From NCBI RefSeq assembly GCF_026151205.1, contig NC_087080.1, forward strand, positions 1,420,879 to 1,484,878: 64,000 nucleotides of DNA, read 5' to 3'. Position 1 is the first letter of the stretch. Every line of letters begins with the position of its first letter. The position numbers and the translations under genes are program-made. This stretch comes from Bolinopsis microptera. Lineage: Eukaryota; Ctenophora; Tentaculata; Lobata; Bolinopsidae. The notes beneath the pieces are model-generated. The model made no database searches and was not told the origin of the DNA. It worked only from the letters and a program-made list of their open reading frames with translations. Shown in pieces: positions 839 to 58,891 of this stretch.

Positions 839-911
839 ATGAAAGTTAATCTTTTGATCGCACTGCCTCTACTGATCTTCCTAGTTCAGGGTTACTACAG
901 TCAACTCCAAG
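839..911 (+). CDS. Exon 1: signal peptide (copy A)
   Basis: The ATG at 839 opens a typical secretory signal: a Lys at residue 2, then a hydrophobic core of Leu, Ile, Ala and Phe, and a likely cleavage region near Gln-Gly-Tyr-Tyr-Ser. The exon ends at ccaag before a gtatg donor at 912, leaving one base (phase 1). The same 73-bp exon occurs in copy B at 42765-42837 with one silent difference. The next exon joins in frame. Confidence 0.75.
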
Positions 912-3900
912 GTATGATGTTTGAAATTAAATAAACAGATTCTATCTTATCGTTCCCATTATTCAGTATTCACGGTTGTAGTCTATTTGACAGTTTTATA
1001 ATTGTGCAAAGTTCCAACGTTTAATAAAATGCCGGACCAGAAAAAGTCCGTACGTATGATGTTACGCTAAGTGATATCATTCTTTTCCAGGAAAATCAGG
1101 AAAAGAAAACGTATATGACATTGACAGCGAACAACGAACAGGTTAGAAATTCCGTCCATCTCAACCTACCACAAAGTTGAACAAATTATAAATAAAGCAA
1201 GACGATAAATTCTACGTAAATTTTGTTGTTATTTCTACTTAGTTGATTATACTTACATCAGCTATTGAGATATGTCCAATTGAACTTGAAGAGTAAGACT
1301 TGATCTGGAGGAGTAATTAAGGACCTACGAAATAATTTCTACTGGTATTTTGTCGAGCTAAACATTCTGAACCCTTTAAACATCCTCAATTTGCTTGAAT
1401 CTCAAAAATGGCGATCTGGAAGCCAGTCTTACAGGTTCTAATCGGACGTATCAGAGCTACTTCAGCTATTAAGTTATTTCCAATTGAACTTGAAGAGTAA
1501 GACTGGATCTGGAGCTGTAATTTAGGGCCTACGAAATAATTTATACTGGTATTTTGTCGAGCTAAACATTCTTCACCCTTTGAACATCCTCAATTTGCTT
1601 GAATTTCAAAAATGGCGAGCTGGAAGCCAGTTTTACAAGTTCTAATCGGACGTATCAGAGTTACTTCAGCTATTGAGTTATGTCCAATTGAGGGTAAGAC
1701 TGGATCTGGAGGAGTAATTTAATCACCATCGAAATAAATTCTATCGGTATTTTGTCGAGCTGAATATCCTGCACCCTTTGAACATCCTCAATTTGCTTGA
1801 ATCTCAAAAATGGTGAGCTGGACGCCATTCTTACAGGTTCTTATTGGACGTATCAGAGTTACTTCAGCTATTGAGTTATGTTCAATTGAAATTAGAAGGG
1901 TAAGACTGGATCTAGAGGAGTAATTTTAGGGCCTACGAAATAACTTCTATCGGTATTTTGTCGAGTTGAACAACTTGCACCCTTTGAACATCCTCGATTT
2001 GCTTGAATCTCAAACATGTTGAGCTGAGTGAGTTTGGTGCTTCTTCACAAGTCGCAAACTCCTGAAGGAACTTGCTGACATTGTAGAAACCTGAGATCTC
2101 GACTAAAATTGATTTTCCACTGTTTATATTAAAGGAGCACACATTTAGAACTCCTTCCATACTCCTTCAGGACTATATTGACGATCATTTTACGTGTTAA
2201 TGATTGCTGAAACATATGGGCGTGGCCCAGGTCAATATGTCCAGACACCGTAGAGTCATACATTTTTGTTGGTTGTTCCTGACCCCATACAGCAACAAAT
2301 TACCTTATCGGACCTTATTTGGACGGACATTACTTGAACGCTGGAGGCCCTAGCGTTCATCTTAATGTCCGTTCAAATAAAGTCCGTTCAATTAATGTCC
2401 GTCCAAGTTAAAGTCCGTTGAAATTTTTCCAAAATTTTTCCATTTCGAACTTTTTGTCCAGAATATGACAACTTTGAGAACTTTATTGTGCCGTAAGTTA
2501 ACGACGGAAAGGTTCTCCTTGGTCTGCCAGAGGCACAGAAAACTCTACTAGTATATGATGTTTTCAAGGGTCACTTGGCGGAAAAAAGTCAACGAAATTA
2601 TGGCACTCAACAACATAGTTCATAAGCTAGTCCCCCGCCAACATGACAAACTTGTTCCAGCCTCTAGATATAACGGTAAATCGTGTTGCCAAGGACATTG
2701 TCCGAAGTTGTTATAGTTCATATTACTCGGGGGCGGTAATGAAACAGTGCTAGGAAAGCTCCACGTGATGTTAAGGTTAACCTAAGATAAAACCACTTCA
2801 CGCCGAATGGCTTGTAAAAGTTAACACTGAAATGCAGGACCAGGGTAGTTTGATAAAAAAGGTTTCCATAAAGCTAGAAATCACTGATGCTTTAAGCATG
2901 GACTATTTCATGCGCGAAAACCCATTTGACGAAGATGATATGTGATATTAGAAACTGATCATGTACACATATTTTAACATTTTTACTGCTTAATGACTGC
3001 TTTTCTTACTTACTGTATAAAAAATGGATTTAAAAATCATTTGCTGAAATTAAAAAAACGTCAAAAAAATTGAAAAAAATTCGGATTTTTGATGGTTTTG
3101 AATGCCTTCGAGCGTTCATATTAATGTCCGTTCATAATTATGTCCGTTCATGTAATATCCGTCCAAATAAGGTCCGATAAGGTAGATACGATCCCTAATT
3201 ATTTGAACAACTAATGGTAATGGTGAATTGTCCTACTCCTAGGCAGAGGTCTAAAGTGGCCTTAATTTAGCTTAGTTTATATTTAAACGATCTGTTACTG
3301 TGACCAACTTTCGACAAATAGTGGCTGCAATTTGGTTACAATGGGCCTTAATATCACCATGGTTAATGGTTATTGACATTTAAATTAAGGCGAATCAGAA
3401 GGCACATCTAACACAGTGATATCATCAACAAGCGGACTGATAGATCTTTGAAGAACCGCTCCGTGGGACACCACTTTGTTGCTTTCTGTTCTCTCAGCAG
3501 CCACATTGAGGCAGACATTAAAAAGTGGGGGACCCTGAATGTCTCCTTGGCCACTGCCTGAACTTACTTCAAACCATTCTCATAGTTCACCATTGTGTCT
3601 AACAGCACTGACAGTTCCATTCAAGAATGCCTGTATTATTCGAATGTATTTACATGGCAGGCCATAATGACTGAAAGCTTTCCAAATATAATTCCTGTCG
3701 ATAGAATCAAAAGCTGCCTTGAAGTCCACAAAATTTACATACAGGGGGAGATTATATTCAATGCAGTTATGTATAATAGTGCGGAGTGAATAAATCTGAT
3801 CAATGCATGATCTGTTCTTTCTAAACCCACACTGATTGTCTCGTAGCAAACTTTCTAAACCTTCACTCATGCGTTGTAATATGATGATTTGATACAGTTT

Positions 3901-9900: not shown

Positions 9901-12900
9901 CTGAGGTTTGGAATATATCGGGCCAGATACGTTACCATGCCCAGGAATCTCTGGATTCCTTTTTTGTCTGCTGGTGCAGGCATCTGAGTTATCGCGACAA
10001 TCTTCTCTGGGTCGGGTTTGAGTCCTTCCGGTGTGATAATGTGTCCGATATACTTCACCTCGTCACACAGGAATTTGCACTTCTTTTTGTTCAACCTTAT
10101 TCCTACTTGGCTGCATCGTTCTAACACAGCTCCAAGCCTGGCCGTGTGCTCTTCGAAGGTGTTAGAGAATACGAGGATATCATCAAATATTATCAACACG
10201 CCTGGGAAACCTTCGAATTTTTCTGTCATTCTCTTCTGGAATATTTCATTTGCGCTGTTCAGTCCGAAAGGAAGACGAAGGTATCGGTACCTTCCAAATG
10301 GAGTGTTGAACGTGGTCAGCTTGCTGGATTTCTCTTCGAGGGGGAGCTGCCAATATCCACTTTTGAGGTCTAGTTTGCTGAAACATCTTGCATTTGTTAT
10401 CTTTGATAACGTTTCTTCTGGGGTAGGCAAATGGTGGTGTTCTCTCATGACCCATCTGTTCAGATCCGTGGGGTCAAGACATATTCTTAGCTTCTCTGGT
10501 TGTTTTACAACCACCATCGAGTTCACCCAATCTGTGGGTTCGTCAACTTTCGTTATCACTCCAAGCTTCAGCATCCTCTCCAGTTCCTCTTGGACTTCGG
10601 TGTGGATCGAGAAGGCTAGCTTTCTTGCCGCATGTTGAACTGGTTGTGCACCGTCTTTCAACTTGATCTTCGATTTTACGTTTGACAGGCAGCCAATCGT
10701 GTCTTCTTTGAAAACATCTTCGTGATCTTTCATCAGGTCTCGTATCTTATCTTCGTGTTGGGACTTTGTCTTGGGTGTTGCTTCTTTCTTCTCCCTTAGA
10801 CTTTGTCTACCAGAGAGAATATCAACCTGAAATTGATGTGAAGGTCTGTGATGAGGTGTTGTGGGGTTAGTGTGAACTGGATTAGACGAGCTGGTTGTGG
10901 TCGGTGGTACACTCGCAAACGGGTTAATGAGATTGAGTCTGATCAATGATTCTAAACCTAGAATAGATCTGGCTAGAAATGGTACAACATGAAATTCAGC
11001 TCTGTGCTTATTACCGTTTATCTCACAATTAAGCAATATAGTACCTAAAGAGGTTATTCCAGTTCCTCCATAAGCTTTTAATCTAATACTAGTATCTCTA
11101 ATTTTGGGGTTTGATACAATCGATTTTAACACTACACTAGAGATAACATTGCATTCAGCACCAGTATCAATTTTGCAAAGAGTTTTTCTACCATTTAAAA
11201 GAATTTGCTCAGTCCATTCCCTACATTTGATTTCTTCAACTGCTCGTTGACTTACCGAGATAGCACCAATGTTGAGTTCCGAGGTGTAGATGCTGTCATC
11301 TTTGTCGTCTTCGTTCATCACTGCATCTAGATCTTCTTCGGAAGGGTCGCAAAAATCTTGGTGGATCATGTCGATCTTTCTTTTAGATCTGCAAACCTTG
11401 GCGAAATGGTTCTTCATTCCACATTTTGAACATGTCCGTCGATACGCTGGGCAGTGCTCAGGGTTTCCAAACTGGTGTTGGTTCCCACAATAACCACATT
11501 TTCCTTGTGAGTTTTGCGGTTTGTATCTCTTGTTAACTTGAGGTTTTGATGGTTCGTTTTGAGGTCTGGGTCTTTTCCTCTCGATGGCATTTACGCTGGC
11601 GTTAGTTGTAGCTAGCAGTGTTTGAATCCTCTTGTCTGCCATCTCCTGGGTTTTAACAATTTTGACTGCAGTTTCCAGTGTGAGGTTGTGTTCTCTAAGA
11701 AGCCTTGTTTTCGTGGCTCGGTTAGACACTCCTACTACGATCCTGTCTCTGATGAGGCTCTCTGATATGTCCTCTGCTTCAAGTTTGATCTTTTTCTTCT
11801 CTCCACCTTCTAGATCGATTTCTATTTCTCTTGGCGGGATCGTGTAGTTGCATTTCTTAGCCTGCATTCGAAGCCTCATTTGAAATGCTTCAATGGTTTC
11901 CTCTTCTTCCTGGTCCATTGTGTTAAAAATGTGTCTTTCTACCGTCTCGTTTGCAGTATGTCTAAATTTATTGATGATCTCGACCTTGATCAACTTGTAT
12001 GAAGCTTTCGCTTCATTGCTTAGGCTTGATACAAATTTTTTCACGGCTCCCCCACACAGCTGCATCAAAATGGCTTTCTTTCGCCTGTCGTCTATTTCCC
12101 CAAAATTTGCAAGCATTGAGTCTTCAAATTCTTCTACCCACTGGTCGAAAGGCTGGTCATTTTCATACTGGGTACATTCGAAAAATCCTCTAACTTCTGA
12201 CACCATGTTATGTTATGTGCTTGCGTTATTGTTGGACAAGTCATACACTGTCACTAGTTTCCCATCAAAACCTGAACAATATATAATTAACCATTTATTC
12301 AAATACAATATATATCAACAATATATATCAAATATACAATACATAACAATAGCGGAGGTATCTAAAACAGCTACTTCAGCTATTGGTTATGTCCAATAAA
12401 AGGGTAAACCTGGATCTAATATCATTTATATTGGGAGCCAAGTCGGTGGTTGCACCAAGTACTCACAACAAAACGAGAAGTAAGTATGTTGTACCGCATC
12501 ATGATCAATGATCAAGTAAAGAAAAGCTTGAACTACTTAACACATTTATAAGATCCGGGAAATCGCTTGTTATTCAAATCAATTACCATATAATTCATAT
12601 TGTATGCTTGGCGCCGCGCATTTGAGGTACAATTCAATCAATCGTCAAATCCTGCAAACGTATGCGGAGGGTAACCATAGAACCATGGCGACGATACCAT
12701 AACTGCTCTTCACGCGGAGAATATGCATTCAAATAACGCATGCGGAGGGTAATGCATGTTTTCCTTTGTGACACGTGACACTATCCGAAAAACCTACCTA
12801 CCTACCCTACCCATCCTCAAATCCTACCACTTCTATCATCTAAACTTTTTTAGCAAAAAAAGTTGATGAAAAAATGGGGAGCTGGAGGCCAGTCTTATAA

Positions 12901-15900
12901 GTTCTAATCGGAAGTATCAGAGCTACTTCTGCTGTTGAGTTATGTCCAATTGAAAGGTAAGGTACTAGATCTAGAGAAGTAATTTTAGGGCTTATGAAAT
13001 AATTTGTACCGGTATGTTGTCGAGCTGAACATCCTGCACCCTTTGAAAATCCTCCATTTGCTTCAATTTTTAAATGTCGAGCTGGAGGCCAGTCTTATGA
13101 GGTCTAATCGGACATATCAGAGTTACTTCAGCTATTGAGTTATGTCCAATTAAAGGGTAAGACTGGATCTGGAGGAGTTGTTTTAGGGCTTACGAAATAA
13201 TTTCTACCGGTATTGTGTCGATCTGAACACAGAAATTCCTAAACTCTTTGAATATCCCCCATTTGCTTGAATTTCAAAAATGGCGAGATTGATGCCAGTC
13301 TTATAGGTTCTTATCAGATGTATCAGAGCTACTTAAGCTATTTAATTATATCCAATCGAAATTTAAAGGGTAAGACTGGATCTGGAGGAGTAATTTAAAA
13401 AGATTTTTCAAATCGGTCGGTGGTAAGTGGTTTAATTTACTAATTGATCATTTTGTGACGCAAATGTGATTCTAAAGTGTCTCACTTACTTTCTCCCATT
13501 CTCGTTCTCTCTCCCCTCATAACAGATTTGCAATATGATTAGGTAATTTGACAGTTGACCTCAAGATTACTTATCAAGTATTACTATTAGCTTATTAGAG
13601 ACGCGAAGGGCACTAAATTGCGGTGTGCTTGGACTGAGCGAGTTTGTACTTTCGCACCGTTTTAACTACGAAATTGTATTGCGTGTTTTCGAATATAATA
13701 GGCGATTTTATACCTTTGAATTTCAACTGTGATAGTGAAGTCCCGGCTGTAGGCACGGGTTATACACTAGTAATGTAATTGAACATCAGAACCAGCCTAC
13801 TGCTAATTTGTACACTTAAGCTTGAAATGACTGTCTCCAGATTGATTCTGATTAAGATAGAGCTCCTCCCCCTATCAAAAGTCCTGGCTACGCCCTTGTA
13901 AATCCGTATTTATACACGCAGTTGTTGATCATTCATGTTTCAGAAAACGGAACTGCACCCAGAGCTGTGAAAGACTTCGGTAGTGATCGCCACAAAAGAC
14001 AAATTATTGGTTAGCAATATTATGTTCTTTCACTTCCATGCTCGATCAAGTGTTATCGGCCACTGCTGTATTACTGATGTACTGATATCAATTGTTAGAT
14101 CAAAATTATTTCATAATTTGATTAGATTATTTTTATTGAAAGTATTTCAAAGCAGGTTAACAAGATTGTATGAAAATAAGTTATTTGAAACTGCCATTTA
14201 AACCGATCAAAATTTTTAAACAAGGTGATAGTGGTTTACCCATGGTAACTAGTAGCAGTGGTGTAACCATGGTAACTAGTAGCAGTGGTGTAACCATGGT
14301 AACTAGTAGCAGTGGCATAACCATGTTAACTAGTAGCAGTGGTGTAACCATGGTAACTAGTAGCAGTGGTGTAACCATGGTAACTAGTAGCAGTGGTGTA
14401 ACCATGGTAACTAGTAGCAGTGGCATAACCATGGTAACTAGTAGCAGTGGTGTAACCATGGTAACTAGTAGCAGTGGTATAAACATGGTAACTAGTAGTA
14501 GTAGTGTAACCATGGTAACTGGTAGCAGTGGTGTGACCATGTTAACTAGTAGCAGTGGTGTAACCATGGTAACTATTAGCAGTGGTGTTACCATGGTAAC
14601 TAGTAGCAGTGGTGTAACCATGGTAACTAGTATAAGCAGTGGTGTAACCATAGTAACTAGTAGCAGTGGTGTAACCATGGTAACTAGTAGCAGTGGTGTA
14701 ACCATGTTAACTACTGATAGTGGTTTGTTTGAATTTCCCCCTACGCACCGACATTATATGAGAACAAATTAGTCACAATGATTAAATGAGTTATACGTAA
14801 ATACATATTATATTGACAATATAAACAATACAAATAGTACTAAGTGTACAATACTTCACTCTATCAGGAGGTAAGATAAAGTGGAGATCTGACGGTAGAT
14901 GTGGTAGAAGGTATCGCATCCCTGATAACAGTCCTGCTGAGTGTGACCCTGATGGGGAGAACCCGTGTTGTAGTGACAGGTGGGGTGGTATGTGTGGTAA
15001 CACGTCCGAGGACTGCTCTTGTTTTGACTGTGTAGACTACAGTGTTATATATAGGGACTGGAGAGAATCAGGAGGTAAGATAAAGTGGAGGTATGACGGT
15101 TACTGTGGTAGAAGGTTTCGCCTCCCTGATAACAGTCCTGGTGAGTGTGACCCTGATGGGGAGAACCCGTGTTGTAGCAGGCGGGGAGAGTGTGGTAACA
15201 CGGCTGAGTACTGCTCTTGTTCTAACTGTGTAAACTACAGTATAGTAAGCGAACTGAGAAAATCAGGAGAAAATTGTACAGTAGCAACATTAGGCGGGTT
15301 TCTGAAAAATGTGTGTTTCAATGAAGAGAAAAAACGATACAACTTCAAGTGTACCCACTCTGATGTGTACTTTGGACATGGTATGAAAGATAATCAGCTT
15401 GGCAGTGTTACTTCAGTGTGTGAAAACGATTCCCACGTGTATCAGGCATGTGGGTTCAACACAGAAATAACAAACACAGATGTGCTGTGTGGAGGCTTGT
15501 TTTGCAATAACAATTACATCAGATGTGTTAAGAACTGTAGTGTAGATAATGATTGTTCTGTAAAGCATGACCCACAACAGTACACTGGAACTAATCTCTG
15601 TAATGATAAATGTGACGACGCTTTCTTTTGTACAGATGAAAGTGATTGTAACGGGTATAAATACGGAGTTAACTGCACATATCGTGGGAGGAAGGATGAT
15701 TATGTTCCTGTAAAGTGGATATGTGACGGAGGCAGGTCCTGTGATAAAGGAGAGGATGAACAGGACTGTAAAGTAACTGGAACGACCCCACACACGTGTA
15801 CAATTTACAGATATAAAATGTTGTATAACCGGATTAGAACAGTACCTATATTTGACTATACTAGGTGCTCCGTATTTGATATAAAGAAGGAAATCTATCC

Positions 15901-18421
15901 ATACTGTCTGAACTATCTAGATCAGACTAACTGTTCTGATATAGAGCGAGTAGTGGGGTATTGTGATATTGATGGGTATAACTCGAGTGTTTCTAAGTAC
16001 ATATTGTGTTATAAAAATGATGAGAAGACTAGTTTACCAGTAAAGTTATGTGACGATGACTTTCAAAACAACTGTATATCACCGTCTACTTCAACTGATT
16101 GTAGAGTACACAAACACAGGATGTGTGACGGAGTGTGGGATTGTACTGATAGAAGTGACGAACTTAATGATTTATGTGAATACATGACGAAGGAATTTCA
16201 ATGTGTCCGTAGGTTTAACTTAAAAATAAATATGTCCGGAATACCAGTTTCTTGGATAATGGACAATCAGGTGGATTGTATGGACGGGTTAGATGAACAG
16301 GCTGAGGATTTGAACTTCTGTGACAATCAAACTGACGAAACCTATCGTTTTAAAGAAAGTGACGAAACTTGCGATAACGTCTATCTGTGTCCAAAAGGTG
16401 ATAAATCATACGTTCAATTCGAACAACTCTGTGATGGAGTGGAGACGTGTGGTGACGGTGCAGAGAATGGGGTTTGTAGGATCGCTAGAGATTTCCCAAC
16501 GATCAATAAGACTGCTCTTTATCACGGAGGATTGCGAAATGTAAGCATTGACTCCAACTGTGAAGTAAAAGAATTCATACGACCCTGGATTGATGTATTC
16601 GGAATAAAGTCAGAGTTAATCGTTCCGACCTCTAAGGTTAATTGCAGCAATTTATTTGGTGAATATTACCTGTTTCTCAGTTGCATGGATCTATGTTCAG
16701 ATGCCCCATGTCCTCTAAATAAAAACAGAACATTGTTGTACAATTCATGTCCTGGACAATATCCTGACCGAGTATATACTCTTGCTAACAACTCTTTTCT
16801 AACGTTTGTTGACAAATCAAATCAAGACCTATTTCACCAGGACTATTTCCAATGCAATAATAGTAGATGTATTGAATACAATCAAGTGTGTGATCTTGTA
16901 AATGATTGCGGGGACATGAGTGACGAAGCAAACTGTTCAAATAACATGATCTGCGAAGACACTTTAAACTCAACTAATCATCAATTCATTTCCTTATCAC
17001 AGAGATGTGATGGTATGTATGATTGCTTTGACCTTTCAGACGAATGCAATGATGCTTGTAGGAAAAGAATACTTAAAAACTGGATACTGCAAGTATTGTG
17101 CTGGGTCATGGGTGTGCTAGCATTGATCTTCAACTCGTACACCGTATTCTGTGGGCTGAAAACTCTTCAGGATAGTGGGACTAGAAGTATGTTAACTAAT
17201 AAGGCAATGGTCAGTCTTATCGGATCAGGGGATCTATTTATTGGATTATACTTAATTATGTTGTCTTTCTATGATAGTTTTGTATATGGGAACGGGTTTT
17301 GCAGACATCAAGCCGATTGGTACACCGGAACAGCATGCTCCATATTAGGGGTCATCAGCACAGTTGGATCACAAGTGTCCCTTTTTGCAATGGCATCCTT
17401 GAGTATCATAAGAATGCACAAGCTCACTTTCAAGAAAATGAGTATTCCATGCCCTGTTAACAGAAATTCCGTCATCAAGGTTGGTTTCTTGGTAACGGGT
17501 ATTATCACTGCTTCACTAGCTATAGCTGTTACACCATTAATGCCTTCATTAGAGGAATATTTTGTACAAGGAATGTACTATGACCCCGCCTACAAAGTGT
17601 TCATTGGCTTCCCCAACAAAGAGAAACATGTTAAAGTTCTTCAAGCACATTACAATACCACTAACAGTAACATCACTATGGATTTAACCTGGAAACAAAT
17701 CAGTGATAAGGTGGACGGTATGTTCACTCAGCAACATGGACTTTTGAGTAGACGTCCAGTTCACTTTTATGGTAACGACGGTGTTTGCTTATTCAAGTAC
17801 TTTGTTCGAAGTGACGATGCAAGAAGAATCAGACAAACGATACAAAATATAGCAGACATAACTGATCAAAAAGGAGATCCAGTAGTTTGGCTTATGCTTG
17901 GTGTGAACTTAGTCTGCTTCATCATCATTTCTGTTTGCTACATAGTTATTTATATCCAGACAAGGATTTCTTCACGGAGATCAGGACAGCGTCATAACCC
18001 AGAAAGAGTTAGGGAAAATAGGTCTATACAGAATAAAATTACTCTTATTGTTGCGACTGATTTCCTTTGCTGGGTACCATTCATTGTTATAAGCGGTATG
18101 CATAATCTTGAATTTTTCGATGCTACTGAATGGTATGTGACGTATGCGATGATAGCTCTTCCACTTAACTCTGTTATCAACCCGCTGATATACGAAAAAA
18201 CATTAGCAGAGTTCCTAGGCAGAAAGTTGGGGGAGGTAAAAAGACTTATCAGGTTAAGTATCTCTGCAGTTATGTCTTCCGTTGCAAGATTCATTCAGTC
18301 AAGGAGTGAAGACATACAGAGCGGGAACAATGATCTAGATGTCATACAGATGGAACATATAAGAGTACAAGAGGATCGGGAACTTTCAAATCAAGTATTA
18401 GCTGAGACAGAAAATCGGTGA
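839..18421 (+). CDS. Spliced LDLa/hevein-like ectodomain class A GPCR, copy A (model of 8 exons)
   Basis: Proposed exons are 839-911, 1091-1141, 4862-4939, 5433-5516, 5735-5812, 13944-14009, 14225-14722 and 14868-18421. Each internal junction has AG before and GT after the exon, every intron is phase 1, and the lengths sum to 4482 nt, exactly 1494 codons including the stop. The predicted protein of about 1493 residues has a signal peptide, short Gly/Ser/Thr segments, an RHKR furin-type site, a Ser/Thr repeat stalk, two hevein-like Cys-rich modules, several LDLa modules and a 7TM domain. It should be a plasma-membrane receptor; the ligand is unknown. The Gypsy element at 7393-12348 lies in the intron before exon 6. 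Splicing is inferred from consensus sites, reading-frame continuity and conservation in copy B; there is no transcript evidence. Exons 3-5 could be alternatively used. Confidence 0.72.
1091..1141 (+). CDS. Exon 2 (copy A), 51 bp, phase 1-1
   Basis: A pyrimidine-rich acceptor (ttcttttccag) precedes it and a gttag donor follows. It encodes a short hydrophilic segment (GKSGKENVYDIDSEQRT). Copy B keeps it at 43014-43064 with a two-residue change in the middle. The length is a multiple of three, so it can be skipped without a frame change. Confidence 0.65.
1265..2160. repeat. About four copies of a 200-bp interspersed repeat
   Basis: The phrase gactggatctggaggagtaat recurs at about 1299, 1501, 1695 and 1903, that is every 194-208 bp. 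Each unit also carries tacgaaataatttct, tattttgtcgagct and ttgaacatcctcaatttgctt. The same family occurs at 5925-6910 (reversed), 12360-13400, 43185-43640 and 50600-51110, always inside introns of the receptor copies. No protein is encoded; the small reverse ORF at 1933-2160 is incidental. Confidence 0.8.
2303..3182. mobile_element. Degenerate pogo/Tigger-like DNA transposon with TA target duplication
   Basis: The ends are inverted repeats of about 38 bp beginning CCTTATCGGACCTTATTTGG, matching at about 36 of 38 positions. TA flanks both sides (2301-2302 and 3183-3184). Copy B at about 43790 has the same flanks without the element, a clean empty site. The interior holds broken transposase coding sequence. 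Tc1/mariner/pogo elements use TA targets, which fits. The extra gtccgttca motifs inside each end may be sub-terminal binding sites. Confidence 0.8.
2521..2945 (+). pseudogene. Transposase remnant (pogo/Jerky-type DDE)
   Basis: At 2521 the frame reads GLPEAQKTLLVYDVFKGH, like the second-aspartate block of DDE transposases of the pogo/Tigger/Jerky group. After frame breaks, 2781-2945 reads 54 codons to a stop, beginning PKIKPLHAEWLVKV and ending in acidic residues, as in the C-termini of these enzymes. The N-terminal DNA-binding region and the rest of the core are missing, so it is inactive. Confidence 0.6.
3420..4200 (-). pseudogene. Non-LTR reverse-transcriptase fragment
   Basis: An open stretch of 181 codons (4125 down to 3580) contains the start of a LINE reverse transcriptase: a KSAGIDEI block, an altered PKKGD..NRGITL block, QCGFRKNRSCIDQI, and the first catalytic aspartate in VDFKAAFDSIDR. 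After a frame change the next block is recognisable (GSGQGDIQGPPLFN) at about 3540-3490, then it decays. The YADD region and endonuclease are absent. It lies in the intron between exons 2 and 3 of copy A and is missing from copy B. Confidence 0.8.
4385..4510 (+). pseudogene. Possible C-terminal LINE fragment
   Basis: The frame around 4400-4508 reads TRKHRVTRFSLRFSSIKNPL followed by IFNSLPASC and stops. This resembles the end of many CR1-like ORF2 proteins (a basic stretch, then an aromatic residue and N-x-LP). It is too short to be sure. Confidence 0.35.
4511..4861. other. Intron sequence, no gene seen
   Basis: AT-rich sequence with several CACGTG-like and cacgtg/gcagtcacg motifs between 4590 and 4720. 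No coding potential or repeat boundary is evident before exon 3. Confidence 0.4.
4862..4939 (+). CDS. Exon 3 (copy A), 78 bp, phase 1-1
   Basis: The acceptor is ttttgttcaag and the donor gttag. It encodes a 26-residue segment starting GGTVGKVPVTIK and ending TSSGPSPGS. It is a near-duplicate of exon 5 and related to exon 4. Together they form a small array of duplicated intron-plus-exon units, with exon starts at 4862, 5433 and 5735. Confidence 0.6.
5433..5516 (+). CDS. Exon 4 (copy A), 84 bp, phase 1-1
   Basis: The acceptor is tcgttccag and the donor gtaag. It encodes 28 residues beginning GSTVGRKHGMVRREQQ and ending in a Ser/Thr run. Copy B has two exons of this type (50080-50163 and 50467-50550). 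It has the same frame and the TSSGPS tail of exons 3 and 5. Confidence 0.62.
5735..5812 (+). CDS. Exon 5 (copy A), 78 bp, phase 1-1
   Basis: The acceptor is ttgttcaag and the donor gttag. It encodes GGTVGKEPVTIKSEQQ and then the TSSGPSPGS tail, so it is almost identical to exon 3. I do not find this subtype in copy B. Confidence 0.6.
5925..6910. repeat. Five or six copies of the 200-bp interspersed repeat, reversed
   Basis: These are reverse complements of the repeat at 1265-2160; the phrase ccctaaaattactcctccagat recurs from about 5933 to 6900. Units at about 6250-6470 and 6470-6690 are nearly identical to each other, showing local tandem amplification. They lie in the intron between exons 5 and 6. 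Confidence 0.8.
6911..7392. other. Intron sequence left of the Gypsy insertion
   Basis: No gene is supported. There is a GC-rich patch with gcgcgcgcg at about 7075 and two tandem copies of ttaccggagtatag at about 7363-7392. The last five bases (atagc, 7388-7392) are the left target duplication of the Gypsy element. Confidence 0.5.
7393..7529 (-). repeat. 3' LTR of the Gypsy element
   Basis: 137 bp, TG...CA ends. It lacks a 6-bp segment (gtcact-type) present in the other LTR and is otherwise identical. Confidence 0.93.
7530..7540 (-). other. Polypurine tract
   Basis: On the minus strand AAAGAGGGAGA directly abuts the 3' LTR, the expected place for the plus-strand primer of an LTR retrotransposon. 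Confidence 0.8.
7863..12206 (-). CDS. Gag-Pol polyprotein of the Gypsy element (1447 aa)
   Basis: Domains in order: Gag (about residues 1-230); two Cys/His zinc-knuckle-like motifs (about 237-272, the second a clear CX2CX4HX4C); aspartic protease with DTGA (about 347-350); reverse transcriptase (about 510-740) with the LPFGL block and a catalytic I-F-D-D at about 673-676; RNase H starting at about 820 (HTDACQAGLGA); integrase with an HHCC finger at about 1040-1078 and a DDE core (Asp in VGADIV, Asp in SDREPIY, Glu in NGQIERA); and a basic C-terminal tail. Gag and Pol share one frame. The usual Tyr of YxDD appears to be Ile. The ATG uses the last LTR base plus the first two bases of the primer-binding site, so the true start could be further in. 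Confidence 0.95.
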   Translation of the reverse strand: MVSEVRGFFECTQYENDQPFDQWVEEFEDSMLANFGEIDDRRKKAILMQLCGGAVKKFVSSLSNEAKASYKLIKVEIINKFRHTANETVERHIFNTMDQEEEETIEAFQMRLRMQAKKCNYTIPPREIEIDLEGGEKKKIKLEAEDISESLIRDRIVVGVSNRATKTRLLREHNLTLETAVKIVKTQEMADKRIQTLLATTNASVNAIERKRPRPQNEPSKPQVNKRYKPQNSQGKCGYCGNQHQFGNPEHCPAYRRTCSKCGMKNHFAKVCRSKRKIDMIHQDFCDPSEEDLDAVMNEDDKDDSIYTSELNIGAISVSQRAVEEIKCREWTEQILLNGRKTLCKIDTGAECNVISSVVLKSIVSNPKIRDTSIRLKAYGGTGITSLGTILLNCEINGNKHRAEFHVVPFLARSILGLESLIRLNLINPFASVPPTTTSSSNPVHTNPTTPHHRPSHQFQVDILSGRQSLREKKEATPKTKSQHEDKIRDLMKDHEDVFKEDTIGCLSNVKSKIKLKDGAQPVQHAARKLAFSIHTEVQEELERMLKLGVITKVDEPTDWVNSMVVVKQPEKLRICLDPTDLNRWVMREHHHLPTPEETLSKITNARCFSKLDLKSGYWQLPLEEKSSKLTTFNTPFGRYRYLRLPFGLNSANEIFQKRMTEKFEGFPGVLIIFDDILVFSNTFEEHTARLGAVLERCSQVGIRLNKKKCKFLCDEVKYIGHIITPEGLKPDPEKIVAITQMPAPADKKGIQRFLGMVTYLARYIPNLSEKTHHLRTMLHKDKVFCWNFEQQKAFDDLKKDLTDDTALAHYDVTKPVEIHTDACQAGLGACLLQQGKPVAYASRSLTETEKRYANIEKELLSVVFGLERFNQYVYGKHVQVYTDHKPLTPISMKPIHANPARCQRLLLRLQKYDYKLSYKPGKDHVIPDTLSRATVPISTHDTVLERECDLNVHMIVETVKSSMQMKHKLKIETARDPCLAKITEYITNGWPDDTRQCDPNVTPYWSMKDQLSVFDDLVLFDDRIVIPKVLQNNILRKLHDTHQGRVRCKALARKGVYWRNINSDIDNMVDKCTECLSTRKLPMKVELKSHSVPLRPFEKVGADIVTVMGRKYQVVIDYFTKWIEVSELSRNPTSDQLISHFKSIFARFGIPDIAFSDREPIYASVVMRKLCEKYDIDKCFSSARYSQSNGQIERAIGHVKNIITRCKGNLDNVNMCLLDYRATPLSPQLGSPHNLLMGRDVKTNLPYLQSSLVTERDCKNRKLLLDRQAASAQYYNRNATKSFDMCNPGDIVIYKDGKSDKTWRQAKVVSVDRKFRSYTLLNSVGNVITRNRSMVIQDKTGRGFSASHDKFFDTLQTPSPLEVPKSCDPRLIPKPILAPKAQTETPKPNPCSTPAKLKKTITVPVTKSNMPPAIAKEYKLRLYAERHNTQPVTLRRSERLAGKAAK
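12194..12205 (-). other. Primer-binding site
   Basis: TGGTGTCAGAAG on the minus strand immediately follows the 5' LTR. TGG complements the CCA end of a tRNA. I have not assigned the tRNA. Confidence 0.75.
12206..12348 (-). repeat. 5' LTR of the Gypsy element
   Basis: 143 bp, TG...CA ends. It contains AT-rich stretches (aatatatatc) and is followed on the plus side by the target duplication atagc. Confidence 0.93.
12354..13410. repeat. 200-bp interspersed repeat units flanking unique sequence
   Basis: A partial unit at 12360-12420 is followed by unique sequence (12420-12870) and then about three full units (12880-13400) in the same orientation as those at 1265-2160. The unique part contains gcatgcggagggtaa twice (about 12660 and 12738). 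Units from 12880 match the copy B block at 50600-51110. Confidence 0.75.
13411..13943. other. Intron, homologous in part to copy B
   Basis: No gene is present. 13411-13650 and 13820-13943 match copy B (51115-51370 and 51940-52066). The middle is replaced in copy B by a TTAA-family fold-back fragment. Confidence 0.6.
13944..14009 (+). CDS. Exon 6 (copy A) with furin-type site
   Basis: The acceptor is catgtttcag and the donor gttag; 66 bp, phase 1-1. It encodes a 22-residue segment ending DRHKRQII. R-H-K-R matches the furin consensus R-X-K/R-R, placed just before the Ser/Thr repeat stalk. Copy B is identical in protein at 52067-52132. Confidence 0.65.
14225..14722 (+). CDS. Exon 7 (copy A): Ser/Thr repeat stalk
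   Basis: The acceptor is ttaaacaag; the chosen donor is the gtttg after GATAGTG at 14722, which keeps phase 1 and is present in copy B. It encodes 166 residues: GDSGLP, then 18 copies of a nine-residue unit MVTSSSGVT (with I, L or N variants and one 3-bp insertion), ending in TTDSG. Dense Ser and Thr suggest an O-glycosylated, mucin-like spacer. Each repeat also carries a possible donor (agtg|gtgta), so the used splice site could vary. Confidence 0.6.
14245..14720. repeat. 27-bp minisatellite, 18 units
   Basis: The unit is about atggtaactagtagcagtgg plus tgtaacc. The matching array in copy B has 8 units (54905-55105), so the copy number varies. Both strands stay open because the unit is a multiple of three without stops; the reverse ORF is a shadow. 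Confidence 0.93.
14868..18421 (+). CDS. Exon 8 (copy A): hevein-like modules, LDLa modules and 7TM receptor
   Basis: The frame is open from the acceptor ctctatcag to the TGA at 18421; a Met at 14990 is internal, because the first hevein-like module starts before it. Two modules of about 65 residues (310-440 of the spliced model) share W-R-x-D-G-x-CG, AECDPDGENPCC and CGNT..CSC..CVDY, resembling hevein/chitin-binding type 1 folds. A Cys-rich stretch and several LDLa modules with C-D-G-x-x-D-C-x-D-x-S-D-E cores follow (about 553-1040; the last two at about 16850-17058 are clearest). The 7TM part (about 1041-1430) has L-I-G-S-G-D in TM2, IIRM in place of DRY after TM3, CWVPF in TM6 and NPLIY in TM7. 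LDLa-bearing class A receptors include relaxin-type and mollusc GRL101 receptors; no leucine-rich repeats are seen here. Confidence 0.93.
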
Positions 18422-18479
18422 AGTGTTTACTCTATGATAATTGATACTGTAACTCGTAGTCGTACATGTTAGAAGATAG

Positions 18480-18660
18480 AAGATCAATCCCGGCATGCGC
18501 AGGGATTGAATTTCAATTTTTCCCGCGACGTGCGGCCGGAAAAATTGATAATAATTTCGAGAGCGAAGCACGAGGGATTATTGTGAAAATAACCCCGATG
18601 TGCTTTGCCTTCAGCGCGAGGGGTTATTTTAATATAACTGAAGCGTGCCGGTGTTATGTG
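18480..18660. repeat. Run of consecutive hairpins, 3' of receptor A
   Basis: At least four short inverted repeats follow each other: TCAATCCC/GGGATTGA, TCAATTTTTCC/GGAAAAATTGA, AATAATTTC/GGGATTATT (two mismatches, G-T type) and AATAACCCC/GGGGTTATT. Stems are AT-rich with a CCC/GGG base. Loops are GC-rich and share gcg-ag type cores. It is repeated at 58945-59130 in copy B. Confidence 0.75.
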
Positions 18661-19291
18661 TTATAAACCCCTCCGGATTAGTGCTAGGATCAACAAATTT
18701 GACATTTTACTCTTAATTCTAGCTATATGAGATCAGTATGGAAAATATGAAATGGAATTGGGGAGTATATTATACTACTAAATATATAAAACTAAGGTAT
18801 ACTACGACATTTGAAATTGGCGTTCTATTTAAACATTATTCCTCAGTCAGAACGTTGAATGAATATCGATAAGGGGCGTCGAGTTAAGCCTGGCAAGCGA
18901 TAAAAGGTGGAGCTAATAATGATATCGTTTCATGAAGTTCATCAAAGTAGACGACTATAATACATGGCTTATATCAAACAGGGCAATTTTGCTACGACAA
19001 AATTAACCGGACAAATGTAACCGTCGAGACAAATTCTGGAACTGGTCCAAGTAATGTAAGAGTACAAGTAATTATGTAAGCAGTGTGCTGGAATTTTGCC
19101 AGCGCCTGCAATTAAACCGATACGTAGATCAAGTGTATTTATAGTTCTTACGTTAAGCCATAGGTGATCACGAGAAATTTTTTACCAATGCGCGTCGTAG
19201 TAGTTAGTCACGTGATACACGTCATCAAAACTCACAGCGGGAGCCGGGACAATCATAATCGAATCTTATTCTAACCTGGAGGGGTTTATAA
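18661..19291. mobile_element. Candidate MITE with 21-bp inverted ends
   Basis: The left end TTATAAACCCCTCCGGATTAG and the right end (reverse complement TTATAAACCCCTCCAGGTTAG) match at 19 of 21 bases. The 631-bp interior has no ORF. It is present at the same place in copy B (59131-59756), so it predates the duplication. The family is not assigned. Confidence 0.55.
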
Positions 19292-19637
19292 TATTATCAT
19301 CTGCTATGTTTTATTCTATAATGGGGCTCTGAATTATGATTTATTCATTTTTGAAGAGTTGTACCTTTCATCATGACAGAATGCCAATTAAACTGGTATC
19401 AAGACTGCTTTACAATCCTAAAGGCAACTTTAACTGTGCTCAGCTATGTTTTTTGAAATAAGCTCCATTTTGATAGTTTCAACAATATCTAATCTTGTGT
19501 GAGTTTTTGACTTTTAATAGATAATAATCATTATATATATTTGTAGGTAAACATTTGCTGGTACATCAGGCCGGTCCCTGACCAACTTATTAAACTGATA
19601 TCAAGACTAAATACTAATGCTCTAATGATGAGTTAAA
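19292..19637. other. 3' flank shared by both copies
   Basis: AT-rich, no gene seen. Nearly identical to 59757-60103. Confidence 0.5.
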
Positions 19638-20635
19638 ATAACATAAACCCGCCACGCAAAGGGTTTATATAACAGATCATCCCGCGCTAGCGGGATGATC
19701 TGATAAACACATACGAGTGCGCGCAGCGCACGAGTTTTGTGTTAATATGTAATCCCGAAGCGCCAGCTGAGGGATTACATTTATTTAGCCCTGAGCGTGA
19801 AGTGTTTATGGATTATAATTATCTCCGGCGATTTCGACAAGGGATTTGAATGTCAAACCGATCTGTCATAGTGGAGCAATAGCTTGAACGTTAGCAGGAA
19901 CAAGAGCTGGAAGGAGAGCAAGCAAAACAATACTATTTTTAGGGCACGGACAAGGGTAGCTGGCTAGTCGCCAACTTCTCACGCCACGCGTTGGAGAAAT
20001 TCCAAGAATTAGCTGCTTTGGCAACGTTCCCAGGAATTTGCGTGTAAAAGAAGTAGACGGTTACGATGTTTCATATCACGTGGTGCGCTTTCGTGTCACG
20101 TGGTATAGACTCGGCGTATGCTATTGGTGGCACGTGGTACGCACTCTAAGTAAACTATAGGTAAAAATATAATATTAATCATAAGCTAAAATGTACTAAT
20201 CTTTGTATTCTAAATGGGGAAAAAGAAGAAACATTGTCAGTCAGTTGAGAAAATTGTCAGTCAGGCTATATGGCAGCTTTGTAGATGTTGTGACTATGCT
20301 AGTAGTGGTCCCAGGCTTGCGACTGGAATTGCGGTGTTAAATCGATTTAATGGTACCAACGATCCACCTCCCACTTGTTGTTTGGTACTTAGCATTAAAG
20401 ACGCGCCCACGTGATCGCGCGTCTAACTGTTCTACTATTATCGAGTTCTAATAAGCGGTATCATTGATTATTGTAAGTCGGAGAATTGAATGATAAACAT
20501 CAGTTACGACTAAAAAGCGGGCCGGGTTTATACAAATTTCCGGGGCGGGATGATATCACCTTTAGATGTTTATCTAACAGCGGGCCGGGCTGAGTGATAA
20601 TATGATCCCGCGTCGAAATCCCGGAGATATTTATA
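19638..20635. mobile_element. 998-bp insertion unique to copy A, hairpin-rich
   Basis: Copy B reads straight from gagttaaa to ctatgttaattg at 60103, so this block is inserted here or deleted there. It opens with strong hairpins: ATAAACCC/GGGTTTAT, CAGATCATCCC/GGGATGATCTG with only gcgctagc between, GTGCGC/GCGCAC, and ATGTAATCCC/GGGATTACAT. It ends with gggccggg-type patches. No target duplication or transposase is visible. The short ORF at 20214-20414 is not convincing. Confidence 0.5.
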
Positions 20636-21294
20636 CTATGTTAATTGAATGTCTTACTAATTAAGTTTTACATTCTTTATTCCTCGAAATACTTAAGAGT
20701 GCACGACAGAAAGTCTAACACTAACAGGACCACTATTTAGATGGAGCTGTTTTAGTTTATTTGCTTACTTTTCATCGGCTTTAAATATTTAAACCACGTA
20801 TTTATCGATGATCATTTTTTTTGGAATTCGTTGTTTTATTTTTGTAAAATTACAAAATAACATTGTTTATCGAGAACAAATTAAAAAAGTTTTTCTCAGA
20901 TAACAATTGGATCCTTGCTTAAGCTAAACCACATTCAATTCAATTTGATGTGCTGAAAACAGGAAAGTTCTATATCCGTTGCTCATAAGGTTCAATTAAA
21001 AATAAAATAATTTTAAGTTCCATCCTGTATATCCTCCTGCCACGGTAATATTTAAAATTGGCTATTTTAGTAAAAAGGAGTAATTTTAGTGGTTTGAGAT
21101 TCGTTGTTCATACATGAATTGCATAAAGGCATTTTGTTTATTTGGTGTAATGAAAATTACTAAAAATTTCCAGTCATTGACTGTGCTTGAATGATTTTAT
21201 GTGTAAGATACATCTCCTAAAGTTTAGCAGATTATTTATATAAGAAGTGTATCCGAATTATAGAAGAAGCTTACGTTTAATTAACAAATGAAGC
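20636..21294. other. Duplicated non-coding flank
   Basis: Matches copy B at 60104-60255 and again from 62190, where copy B has a 1.9-kb insertion. AT-rich; no gene seen. Confidence 0.55.
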
Positions 21295-22413
21295 TTTTTG
21301 TGTTCAACCAAGGGATAGTTCGACAAGGTTGATGACATTCCATGAAGGTGTCTAATCAGAACACCACAGAAGAACACCTGATAGCAGATCGGCCAATCAC
21401 AGTCTCAGACGGTGGTCTATGGATCGTAAGAATGGATAATGAGCGGCAGAGTTTAAAGATAATGAGCAGCAGACACAGGACTCTGTGAGATTCGGAGACG
21501 ATATATGGGGATGACGATCGGAAGATAGAGCAGTCTAAGCCAGCACAGCCGATAGGGTTGTTCCAGTACTCAGGGGCCAGTAGGCCGGTTTCGACCAGCT
21601 ACGCTATGTTTCGATAAGCTTGCTAGTCGTAGTAATCCAGTAAGTTCTTTTTCTTAATTTGATGTGAGCGTTTAATTTAGCTGTATTGTTTCTAAATTAA
21701 AAGTTCAGACGTGCATTTATAATAATATTGTTTCCAATTGTCAATTCCTGTTTCCTCCATTCATCTTAATCAACGCAGCTAGTAATACGTAATTTCTATC
21801 CAGGTTCAACCAGACACGAATACATGTTGCAGTTTTGTTGATAAGATTCCTCCTAAACTAGATGACCATTCCTTAAACCATCATGCGTGTTAGGTTCGTT
21901 CTAGAGGTAGATTACTTTTTTATTCATTTCAGTATGTTAGATCTAAAAATAATAAGAAGGTAGTTGAACATCGTAATTCCTCATTCTCAATCAATATTTT
22001 GGTGTTCAACCAAGGGACAGTTCGACACGGTTGATGACATTCCATGGAGGTGTCCAATCAGAACACCACAGAAGAACACCTGATAGCAGATCGGCCAATC
22101 ACAGTCTCAGACGGTGGTCTATGGATCGTAAGAATGGATAATGAGCGGCAGAGTTTAAAGATAATGAGCAGCAGACACAGGACTCTGTGAGATTCGGAGA
22201 CGATATATGGGGATGACGATCGGAGGATAGAGCAGTCTTAAGCCAGCACAGCCAATAGGGTTGTTCCAGTACTCAGGGGCCAGTTGGCCGGTTTCGACCA
22301 GTTACGCTATATTTTGATAAGCTTGCTAGTCGTAGTAATCCAGTAAGTTATTTTTCTTAATTTGATGTGAGCGTTTAATTTAGCTGTCTTGCTTCTAAAT
22401 TAGGAGTTCAGAC
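21295..22413. repeat. Two tandem copies of a roughly 700-bp repeat
   Basis: The phrase gtgttcaaccaagggatag begins at about 21299 and recurs at about 22003 as caagggacag, followed by closely matching sequence (gcagatcggccaatcacagtctc, gagcggcagagtttaaagata). A third copy is at 62700-63217. The tail of the unit leads into the satellite at 22414. Confidence 0.8.
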
Positions 22414-42764: not shown

Positions 42765-42837
42765 ATGAAAGTTAATCTTTTAATCGCACTGCCTCTACTG
42801 ATCTTCCTAGTTCAGGGTTACTACAGTCAACTCCAAG
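42765..42837 (+). CDS. Exon 1: signal peptide (copy B)
   Basis: Same 24-residue signal sequence as copy A, with a silent change. Donor gtatg at 42838. Confidence 0.72.
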
Positions 42838-43013: not shown

Positions 43014-43064
43014 GAAAATCAGGAAAAGAAAAAGGATATGACATTGACAGCGAACAACGAACAG
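43014..43064 (+). CDS. Exon 2 (copy B)
   Basis: 51 bp, phase 1-1, acceptor ttcttttccag. Encodes KGYDIDSE where copy A has NVYDIDSE. Confidence 0.63.
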
Positions 43065-52066: not shown

Positions 52067-52132
52067 AAAACGGAACTGCACCCAGAGCTGTGAAAGATTT
52101 CGGTAGTGATCGCCACAAAAGACAAATTATTG
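52067..52132 (+). CDS. Exon 5 (copy B) with RHKR site
   Basis: 66 bp, identical in protein to copy A exon 6. Acceptor catgtttcag, donor gttag. Confidence 0.63.
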
Positions 52133-54884: not shown

Positions 54885-55109
54885 GTGATAGTGGTTTACC
54901 CATGGTAACTAGTAGCAGTGGTGTAACCATGGTAACTAGTAGCAGTGGTGTAACCATGGTAACTAGTAGCAGTGGTGTTACCATGTTAACTAGTAGCAGT
55001 GGTGTAACCATGGTAACTAGTAGCAGTGGTGTAACCATGGTAACTAGTAGCAGTGGTGTAACCATGGTAACTAGTAGCAGTGGTGTAACCATGTTAATTA
55101 GTGATAGTG
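54885..55109 (+). CDS. Exon 6 (copy B): Ser/Thr repeat stalk, 8 units
   Basis: 225 bp, phase 1-1, same start (GDSGLP) and end (SDSG) as copy A exon 7, but ten fewer nine-residue units. Confidence 0.6.
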
Positions 55110-55254: not shown

Positions 55255-58200
55255 GAGGTAAGATAAGGTGGAGATCTGACGGTAGATGTGGTAGTATTAA
55301 TCCCCTCCCTGATAACAGTCCTGCTGAGTGTGACCCTGATGGGGAGGACCCGTGTTGTAACAGGTGGTGGGGTGGTATGTGTGGTAACATAGCTGAGCAC
55401 TGCTCTTGTTCTGGCTGTGTAGACTTCAGTGTTATATATAAGGACTGGAGAGAATCAGGAGGTAAGAGAAAGTGGAGGTATGACGGTTACTGTGGTATTA
55501 AATATCCCCTCCCTGATAACAGTCCTGCTGAGTGTGACCCTGATGGGGAGAACCCGTGTTGTAATGGCGGGTATAATGTTGGTAGAGGTGACGACGAGTT
55601 TCCTGGTGTGTGTGGTAACACGGCTTGGTACTGCTCTTGTCCTGACTGTGTAGACTACAGAATAGTGAGCGAACTGAGAAAATCAGGAGAAAATTGTACA
55701 TTAGCAACAGTAGGCGGGTTTCTGAAAAATGTGTGTTTCAATGAAAAGAGGAAACGATACAACTTCAAGTGTACCCACTCTGATGTGTACTTTAAAGAGA
55801 AAAGAGGGAATCGGCGTGTTTCTACAGTGTGTGAGAACGATCCCCACGTGTATCAGGCATGTGGGTTCAACACAGAAATAACAAACACGGATGTACTGTG
55901 TGGAGGCCTGTTTTGCAATAACACATATATCAGATGTGTTAAGAACTGTAGTGTATATAATGATTGTTCTGTAAAGCATGACCCACAACAGTACACTGGA
56001 ACTAGTCATGCTATTACTTCTACTCCTTATCCTACTACTGAGCCTAGAGCGTACCCAACAACAGAACTCTGTAATGATAAATGTGACGACACTAGATGTA
56101 TAGATGAAAGTGATTGTAACGGGTATGAATACGGAGTTAACTGCACATATAGTGGGAGGAAGATGTATGTTCCTGTATACGGGATATGTGCCGGATACAG
56201 TCTCTGTGATAACAGAGAGGATGAACAGGACTGTAAAGTAACTGAAACTACCCCAGCACACTCGTGTACACATTACATCAGTAAAGTGGGGTATTATAAC
56301 CAGATTAGAACAGTACCTATATTCAACTATACTAGGTGCCCAGTATTTGATATAAAGAAGGAAATCTATCCATACTGTCTCAACTATCTAGATCAGACTA
56401 ACTGTTCTGATAGTGAGCGAGTAGGAGGGTATTGTCCTATTAATGGGTATTTGTCGAGCGTTTCTAAGTACATGTTGTGTTATGAAAATGATGAGAAGAC
56501 TAGTTTACCAGTAAAGTTATGTGACGATGACTTTCAAAACAACTGTATATCACCGTCTACTTCAACTGATTGTAGAGTACACAAACACAGGATGTGTGAC
56601 GGAGTGTGGGATTGTACTGATGGAAGTGACGAACTTCATGACATATGTGAATACATGACGAAGGAATTTCAATGTGTCCGTAGGTTTACCTTAGAAATAA
56701 AAATGTTCGGAATACCAGTTTCGTGGATAATGGATACTGAGACGGATTGTATGGACGGGTTAGATGAACAGGCTGAGGATTTGAATTTCTGTGACAATCA
56801 AATTGACGAAACCTATCGATTTAAAGAAAGTTATGAAACTTGTGATAACGTCTATCTGTGTCCAAAAGGTGATAAATCATACGTTCAATTCGAACAACTC
56901 TGTGATGGAGTGGAGACGTGTGGTGACGGTGCAGAGAATGGGGTTTGTAGGATCGCTAGAGATTTCCCAACGATCAATAAGACTGCTCTTTATCACGGAG
57001 GATTGCGAAATGTAAGCATTGACTCCAACTGTGAAGTAAAAGAATTCATACGACCCTGGATTGATGTATTCGGAATAAAGTCAGAGTTAATCGTTCCGAC
57101 CTCTAAGGTTAATTGCAGCAATTTATTTGGTGAATATTACCTGTTTCTCAGTTGCATGGATCTATGTTCAGATGCCCCATGTCCTCTAAATAAAAACAGA
57201 ACATTGTTGTACAATTCATGTCCTGGACAATATCCTGACCGAATATATACTCTTGCTAACAACTCTTTTCTAACGTTTGTTGACAAATCAAATCAAGACC
57301 TATTTCACCAGACTATTTCCAATGCAATAATAGTAGATGTATTGAATACAATCAAGTGTGTGATCTTGTAAATGATTGCGGGGACATGAGTGACGAAGCA
57401 AACTGTTCAAATAACATGATCTGCGAAGACACTTTAAACTCAACTAATCATCAATTCATTTCCTTATCACAGAGATGTGATGGTATGTATGATTGCTTTG
57501 ACCTTTCAGACGAATGCAATGATGCTTGTAGGAAAAGAATACTTAAAAACTGGATATTGCAAGTATTGTGCTGGGTCATGGGTGTGCTAGCATTGATCTT
57601 CAACTCGTACACCGTATTCTGTGGGCTGAAAACTCTTCAGGATAGTGGGACTAGAAGTATGTTAACTAATAAGGCAATGGTCAGTCTTATCGGATCAGGG
57701 GATCTATTTATTGGATTATACTTAATTATGTTGTCTTTCTATGATAGTTTTGTATATGGGAACGGGTTTTGCAGACATCAAGCCGATTGGTACACCGGAA
57801 CAGCATGCTCCATATTAGGGGTCATCAGCACAGTTGGATCACAAGTGTCCCTTTTTGCAATGGCATCCTTGAGTATCATAAGAATGCACAAGCTCACTTT
57901 CAAGAAAATGAGTATTCCATGCCCTGTTAACAGAAATTCCGTCATCAAGGTTGGTTTCTTGGTAACGGGTATTATCACTGCTTCACTAGCTATAGCTGTT
58001 ACACCATTAATGCCTTCATTAGAGGAATATTTTGTACAAGGAATGTACTATGACCCCGCCTACAAAGTGTTCATTGGCTTCCCCAACAAAGAGAAACATG
58101 TTAAAGTTCTTCAAGCACATTACAATACCACTAACAGTAACATCACTATGGATTTAACCTGGAAACAAATCAGTGATAAGGTGGACGGTATGTTCACTCA

Positions 58201-58891
58201 GCAACATGGACTTTTGAGTAGACATCCAGTTCATTTCTATGGTAATGACGGTGTTTGCTTATTCAAGTACTTTGTTCGGAGTGACGATGCAAGAAGAATC
58301 AGACAAACGATACAAAATATAGCAGACATAACTGATCAAAAAGGAGATCCAGTAGTTTGGCTTATGCTTGGTGTGAACTTAGTCTGCTTCATCATCATTT
58401 CTGTTTGCTACATAGTTATTTATATCCAGACAAGGATTTCTTCACGGAGATCAGGACAGCGTCATAACCCAGAAAGAGTTAGGGAAAATAGGTCTATACA
58501 GAATAAAATTACTCTTATTGTTGCGACTGATTTCCTTTGCTGGGTACCATTCATTGTTATAAGCGGTATGCATAATCTTGAATTTTTCGATGCTACTGAA
58601 TGGTATGTGACGTATGCGATGATAGCTCTTCCACTTAACTCTGTTATCAACCCGCTGATATACGAAAAAACATTAGCAGAGTTCCTAGGCAGAAAGTTGG
58701 GGGAGGTAAAAAGACTTATCAGGTTAAGTATCTCTGCAGTTATGTCTTCCGTTGCAAGATTCATTCAGTCAAGGAGTGAAGACATACAGAGCGGGAACAA
58801 TGATCTAGATGTCATACAGATGGAACATATAAGAGTACAAGAGGATCAGGAACTTTCAAATCAAGTATTAGCTGAGACAGAAAATCGGTGA
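55255..58891 (+). pseudogene. Exon 7 (copy B): hevein-like, LDLa and 7TM, with 1-bp deletion
   Basis: Open from the acceptor ctctatcag to about 57371, then continued in another frame from 57356 to the stop at 58891. The modules are as in copy A. The second hevein-like module has an insertion (NGGYNVGRGDDEFPG), and a Thr/Pro-rich insert (HAITSTPYPTTEPRAYPTTE) precedes the first LDLa. Many patches differ in protein up to about 56850. Beyond that the two copies are almost identical to the stop. Confidence 0.88.

Follow-up and report, generated by a model that had tools for sequence, protein, structure and literature searches.

Tandem comb-jelly receptors with probable patch-wise diversification of hevein-like outer modules beside an apparently homogenised signalling half

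Introduction

In the MHC class I and class II genes, a divergent peptide-binding recognition exon lies beside homogenised introns and a conserved remainder. The amphioxus VCBPs join a chitin-binding domain to a variable recognition part and are Ig-type secreted proteins without a 7TM domain. Another amphioxus protein, BbtPGRP3 (PDB 4z8i), is described in the available part of its report as carrying one hevein-like chitin-binding domain with a chitin-binding Trp pair on a PGRP amidase, and the chitin-binding domain of the VCBPs is assigned there to another type (PMC4610682). In the available parts of further sources, the immune repertoire paper on M. leidyi treats GPCRs as a general class (PMC11797021), and a receptor that combines hevein-like modules and a 7TM domain of LGR type was found neither in the survey of choanoflagellate GPCRs (PMC12716839) nor in the paper on LGR origins (PMC4079206). 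The same holds for the openly licensed PMC literature as far as it was accessible, and a description may exist elsewhere.

Here, two tandem receptor genes of the comb jelly Bolinopsis microptera, copies A and B, are analysed in a stretch of 64,000 nucleotides, hereafter the window. They resemble the MHC genes in that a divergent putative recognition exon adjoins a homogenised intron and a conserved rest; however, the protein is unrelated and the contrast is found between tandem paralogues, not within a population sample. The likeness to the VCBPs lies in the coupling of a chitin-binding-type domain with a variable, putatively recognising part. In contrast to BbtPGRP3, the comb-jelly receptors carry up to 15 modules (in the proteins listed by our searches) on a GPCR, and the Trp positions are hypervariable. 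With the LGRs, i.e., TSHR, LHR, RXFP1, LGR4 and the GRL101 type with several LDLa repeats, they share the 7TM domain and LDLa repeats, but they carry hevein-like modules.

Gene Structure of the Two Copies

Copies A and B arose by tandem duplication of a single receptor gene and lie about 40 kb apart (Table 1). Comparison of the window with itself revealed matching blocks between ~567–21811 and 42470–63210, interspersed with insertions that differ between the copies, and a third gene copy was not found in the window, tblastn matches being restricted to A and B. The signal peptide of the Bolinopsis protein P0049, used as tblastn query, matched exon 1 of A with an E-value of 0.041, and the same match occurs at 42771. 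The small exons of both copies were predicted without transcripts, on the basis of splice sites, reading frame and A/B conservation. The RHKR-Q sequence of exon 3 is presumably a furin-like cleavage motif. The 27-bp repeat of the last intron, its unit being a multiple of 3, can be read through as a long open frame as well (VTMVTSSSG). In copy B, a 1-bp deletion relative to A near 57311 leaves 684 open codons upstream and abolishes the frame ahead of the last LDLa repeats and the 7TM domain. Since B hardly differs from A in the broken 3' half, this break represents either a recent loss or an assembly error.

Table 1. Features of receptor copies A and B, in window coordinates
Feature	Position	Strand	Basis or remark
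Copy A exon 1, signal peptide (MKVNLLIALPLLIFLVQGYYSQLQ), phase-1 donor CAAG/GTATGA	839..911	+	tblastn; conserved between A and B
Copy A exon 2, 51 nt, phase 1-1	1091..1141	+	Splice-site and frame inference; conserved in B
Copy A exon 3, 66 nt, phase 1-1, with RHKR-Q	13944..14009	+	Splice-site and frame inference; conserved in B
27-bp tandem repeat, 17.8 copies, last intron	14230..14713	+	Shorter in B, ~54890-55102
Last intron, distal part, apparently homogenised tract	14714..14867	+	A/B alignment
Copy A exon 4, rest of receptor, 1183 aa from 14870	14868..18421	+	Single open frame
Two tandem hevein-like (CBM18-type) modules, hypervariable loops	14870..15307	+	
Cys-rich ectodomain, degenerate LDLa-like repeats; remainder of divergent block	15308..16385	+	
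Membrane-proximal ectodomain, LDLa repeats; apparently homogenised	16386..17059	+	99.6% aa identity to B
7TM domain of LGR type and C-tail; apparently homogenised	17060..18421	+	Pfam 7tm_1, E 6.1e-12
Copy B exon 1 (signal peptide)	42765..42837	+	tblastn, conservation
Copy B exon 2	43014..43064	+	Splice-site/frame, conservation
Copy B exon 3	52067..52132	+	Splice-site/frame, conservation
Copy B exon 4	55255..58891	+	A/B alignment; frame broken

Relatives, Hevein-Like Modules and the 7TM Domain

Two database searches returned 371 and 426 proteins at E<=1e-3, with 131 different proteins among the matches listed; these are the best 120 of 371 and the best 120 of 426, so that the counts do not give the family size per species. 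The listed relatives include proteins of Bolinopsis microptera, which belongs to the Lobata, and of Mnemiopsis leidyi, both ctenophores. With these numbers and the diverse loops among the listed matches, the prediction that many paralogues vary in the same places was borne out.

A profile built from 30 modules matches PDB 4z8i at 2.5e-13, and the modules match the hevein fold in fold comparison. The Pfam family PF00187 (hevein-like, CBM18) is found in 6/30 single modules at E<=1 (best 3.1e-6) and in 2/22 whole proteins at E<=0.01, and Pfam gave no PF00187 match to copy A itself at E<=10. Among 310 modules of the listed proteins, 281 distinct CC-loop-C strings occur, and the two Trp positions reach 3.27 and 3.00 bits; as the module pattern is self-devised and the conservation of its fixed letters is built in, comparison is confined to the free positions. 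Variability is among the highest at those positions that bind chitin in an animal homologue of solved structure. According to the available part of the amphioxus report, the homologous Trp pair was mutated in that protein (PMC4610682), which makes the loop positions directly testable. A strict chitin-contact motif (S-x-aromatic-G-aromatic ... aromatic) was found in 0/305 distinct modules and a relaxed form in 5/305; a sugar ligand is therefore not assured. Within the listed proteins identical loops occur in 26/706 module pairs, compared with 8/48749 pairs between proteins. The number of modules per listed protein reaches 15 by the main pattern and 17 by another pattern; 40/131 listed proteins show no module, and many of these are ORFs cut at the N-terminus. 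Proteins from hemichordates, sea cucumber, amphioxus and Artemia (brine shrimp) match the module as well (P0140, P0152, P0165-P0168, P0172, P0174), so that it is not confined to comb jellies; some of these non-ctenophore proteins have other Pfam domains, and no GPCR domain is listed for them.

The 7TM domain of copy A matches Pfam 7tm_1 with an E-value of 6.1e-12. Its best matches by sequence and by fold are the receptors for thyrotropin (TSHR), lutropin (LHR), follitropin (FSHR) and relaxin (RXFP1), and LGR4. The fold search started from a full-length model that is poor overall (mean pLDDT 58) and reaches ~80 in the 7TM part, and only the 7TM matches were used, which agree with the sequence search. 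Sequence and model thus place the protein in the predicted rhodopsin-class GPCRs with an LGR-type 7TM domain. By kinship, one might guess that this domain couples to Gs. Leucine-rich repeats were sought in A and 21 relatives, and no LRR family was found at E<=0.01 in 22/22 proteins. The first-pass annotation had proposed a GPCR whose conserved 7TM domain carries hevein-like, LDLa and Cys-rich modules, and this architecture was supported.

Divergence Between the Copies

The first-pass annotation had reported that the exon copies diverge in clustered patches that mostly change amino acids, while the adjacent intron shows only two 2-bp indels. Its coordinates and examples were accurate. The intron tail (14720-14867) differs from B by 0 mismatches and two 2-bp indels (an extra 1-bp gap is an alignment edge), the exon block 14868-16385 by 144 mismatches, 16386-18421 by 8 mismatches and the 3' noncoding flank 18422-19637 by 6 mismatches. 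The first mismatch of the divergent block is the 13th base past the splice site and the last lies at 16372; of its 499 aligned codons, 93 are amino-acid-changing and 17 silent. The duplicated blocks elsewhere in the A/B pair are 2.4-11.3% different, block by block; it is therefore the intron tail and the 3' half that are unusually similar, and not the block alone that is unusually divergent. The contrast between intron and exon is thus real, but it is better explained by homogenisation of the intron tail and 3' half than by divergence of the block alone.

Within the block, 43 adjacent mismatch pairs were counted, compared with 13.7 expected and a maximum of 26 over 5000 shuffles, and uninterrupted identity extends over up to 137 bp, while the 99.9% limit in shuffles is 107. 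By codon phase, the adjacent mismatches are distributed as 12, 19 and 12, with 12/43 pairs spanning codon borders. Many of the changes thus lie in short patches without regard to codon borders, the pattern that multi-nucleotide events or micro-conversion would be expected to leave. The eight indels of the block have lengths of 33, 3, 6, 60, 3, 3, 3 and 3, all divisible by 3 (the 1-bp gap at the block edge omitted).

As noncoding yardstick served three duplicated blocks of our choice, 560-1253, 5181-5562 (repeat-derived) and 13815-14156, the first and third of which hold small exons. They differ at 46/690 (exons 1-2 region), 27/383 (5181-5562) and 17/339 (exon 3 region) positions, i.e., at 90/1412 or 6.4%. 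Including the initially omitted blocks 12902-13662 (84/744), 14148-14230 (2/83) and 20782-21811 (25/1025) yields 201/3264 (6.2%) and the same three outcomes; 20631-20788 (1/158), which adjoins the homogenised tract, was excluded from both yardsticks. With the smaller and the larger yardstick, respectively, silent-only codons of the block (17/231, 7.4%) match the background (p=0.57 and p=0.48), amino-acid-changing divergence (120/1210) exceeds it (p=0.0009 and p=3e-5), and the 3' half with its flank (14/3252) falls below it (p=2e-33 and p=9e-45). The agreement of silent divergence with the noncoding background holds only for silent-only codons; the Nei-Gojobori silent count of 33/286, which includes silent steps inside amino-acid-changing codons, is higher than the yardstick (p=0.004). 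As silent-only codons match the yardstick and the 3' half lies far below it, the block seems to date back about as far as the duplication itself, and gene conversion appears to have homogenised the intron tail and 3' half recently.

Selection on the Outer Block

By the Nei-Gojobori method, dS is 0.123 and dN 0.107 in the block (dN/dS 0.87), and in the 7TM part dS is 0.017 and dN 0.002. At the DNA level this comparison covers one pair, A and B, and the relatives were compared as proteins. When codons were sorted by their variability in 21 other relatives, i.e., independently of A and B, dN/dS was 1.40 at 96 variable codons, where the interval of dN-dS includes 0, and 0.36 at 285 conserved codons, with an A/B dN of 0.316 and 0.034, respectively. 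A dN/dS far above 1 over the whole block is rejected by the value of 0.87, and the values well above 1 that the first-pass annotation had expected were not reached. Where the first-pass annotation had named diversifying selection or segmental gene conversion, segmental conversion and strong patchiness were upheld, while dN/dS did not bear out diversifying selection as stated. Silent sites also diverge within the block, and as they differ more than the neighbouring intron, selection on amino acids alone is insufficient as an explanation. Positive selection on the block is likely but unproven: the excess of amino-acid-changing divergence over the noncoding background speaks for it, and the Nei-Gojobori silent count, which is likewise higher than that background, against it. 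Overall, the sequences probably reflect patch-wise diversification, favoured by selection, beside a homogenised signalling half.

The overall dN/dS of 0.87 and the near-equal spread of mismatches over the codon positions (49/49/46) would also be met if the outer block were a spacer that tolerates change under relaxed constraint and the A/B contrast arose from gene conversion of the 3' half alone. This explanation is unlikely, as the Cys scaffold is conserved and dN/dS is low at conserved codons, nonsynonymous divergence exceeds the noncoding background, the variability is centred on loops including known ligand-contact positions, and all block indels are in frame.

Sisterhood of the Copies and Possible Import

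In trees of four segments, i.e., modules, rest of the head and two downstream segments, built with 16, 26, 28 and 28 of 28 rows (rows <60% filled were dropped), A and B are sisters throughout, with support values of 81 (not starred), 98, 100 and 99 and A-B path lengths of 0.57, 0.33, 0.0048 and 0.0043. This sisterhood disfavours, as main cause, a transfer of the entire head from one of the listed paralogues.

The copying of the divergent block or of patches from other paralogues, i.e., ectopic conversion of the head, is quite unlikely as the leading cause, although several observations speak for it. The block edges are sharp and adjacent mismatches cross codon borders; the modules of A and B are 77% identical, not above the 78% between A and its best other listed match; and in the module tree P0009 is closer to A by path (0.54) than B is. 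Furthermore, another listed protein is nearer than the other copy in 15/25 (A) and 11/23 (B) 40-residue windows of the head, as against 1/32 and 0/32 downstream, in a comparison that sets the best of up to 120 listed proteins against one copy and uses overlapping windows. Small imports are therefore possible, and these windows make import somewhat more probable at the expense of both relaxed constraint and our preferred reading. Against import stand the sisterhood of A and B in both head trees, the match of silent-only divergence to the noncoding background and a donor search in the window, which recovered for the patches only 16-19-bp matches between modules.

That copy B is a decaying pseudogene whose head diverged unconstrained is very improbable: the 1-bp deletion would fit it, but the long open frame upstream, the in-frame block indels and the near-identity of the broken 3' half, which points to a recent break or an assembly error, contradict it. 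Least credible of all is an artefact joining alleles or haplotypes in one contig, for although a single assembly was used and the 3' halves are very similar, duplicated blocks elsewhere differ by several percent and insertions differ between the copies, e.g., 52276-54808 in B only.

The contrast between head and 7TM domain recurs in the family. In all 74 other pairs with a 7TM identity >90% (six include A or B), the head (residues 147-505) differs more than the 7TM domain, by 1.6 to 8.8 times, with A/B as the extreme at 66, in a protein collection clustered at 90% identity, from which pairs alike in head and tail are absent, which favours such a contrast; 113/122 proteins passed the coverage filter.

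Putative Function

The variable lectin-like loops suggest a role in recognition. The account that we consider reasonably probable as a whole is that these are recognition receptors with diversified outer modules and a uniform signalling half maintained by gene conversion. At the cell surface, lectin-type modules may bind varied ligands, such as glycans of microbes or prey, or surface molecules of other kinds, and this varied binding would feed one fixed G-protein output. Diversity would originate from tandem duplication, duplication of modules within genes, patch-wise change and perhaps small imports; selection would retain it, and gene conversion would keep the signalling half uniform. More doubtful is an extension to a large, individually variable system of comb jellies, in which tandem hevein modules with randomised loops act on a single GPCR output, the signalling half being refreshed by gene conversion while the binding half diversifies.

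More than 100 listed GPCRs with variable lectin-like loops and a uniform signalling half are concrete candidates for diversified recognition. They could form a diversified system of recognition in a lineage that is among the oldest of animals, and the more doubtful extension, if true, would make it a lectin-GPCR counterpart of diversified antigen receptors or chemoreceptors in the lineage that is sister, or nearly so, to all other animals.

Mobile Elements and Repeats

The predicted intron 2 of copy A harbours an open retrotransposon ORF of 1449 residues (7863-12212, minus strand) with RT, RNase H and integrase domains (Pfam), which we take to be Gypsy-like. Between A and B, a non-LTR-type retrotransposon ORF with endonuclease and RT domains (Pfam) is found at 35776-38472 on the plus strand. 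The insertion at 52276-54808, limited to the last intron of copy B, consists of inverted halves (52275-52970 and 54113-54808) that match at 98%. On the 3' side of copy A, repeat units of ~0.7 kb form an array at 21295-25367.
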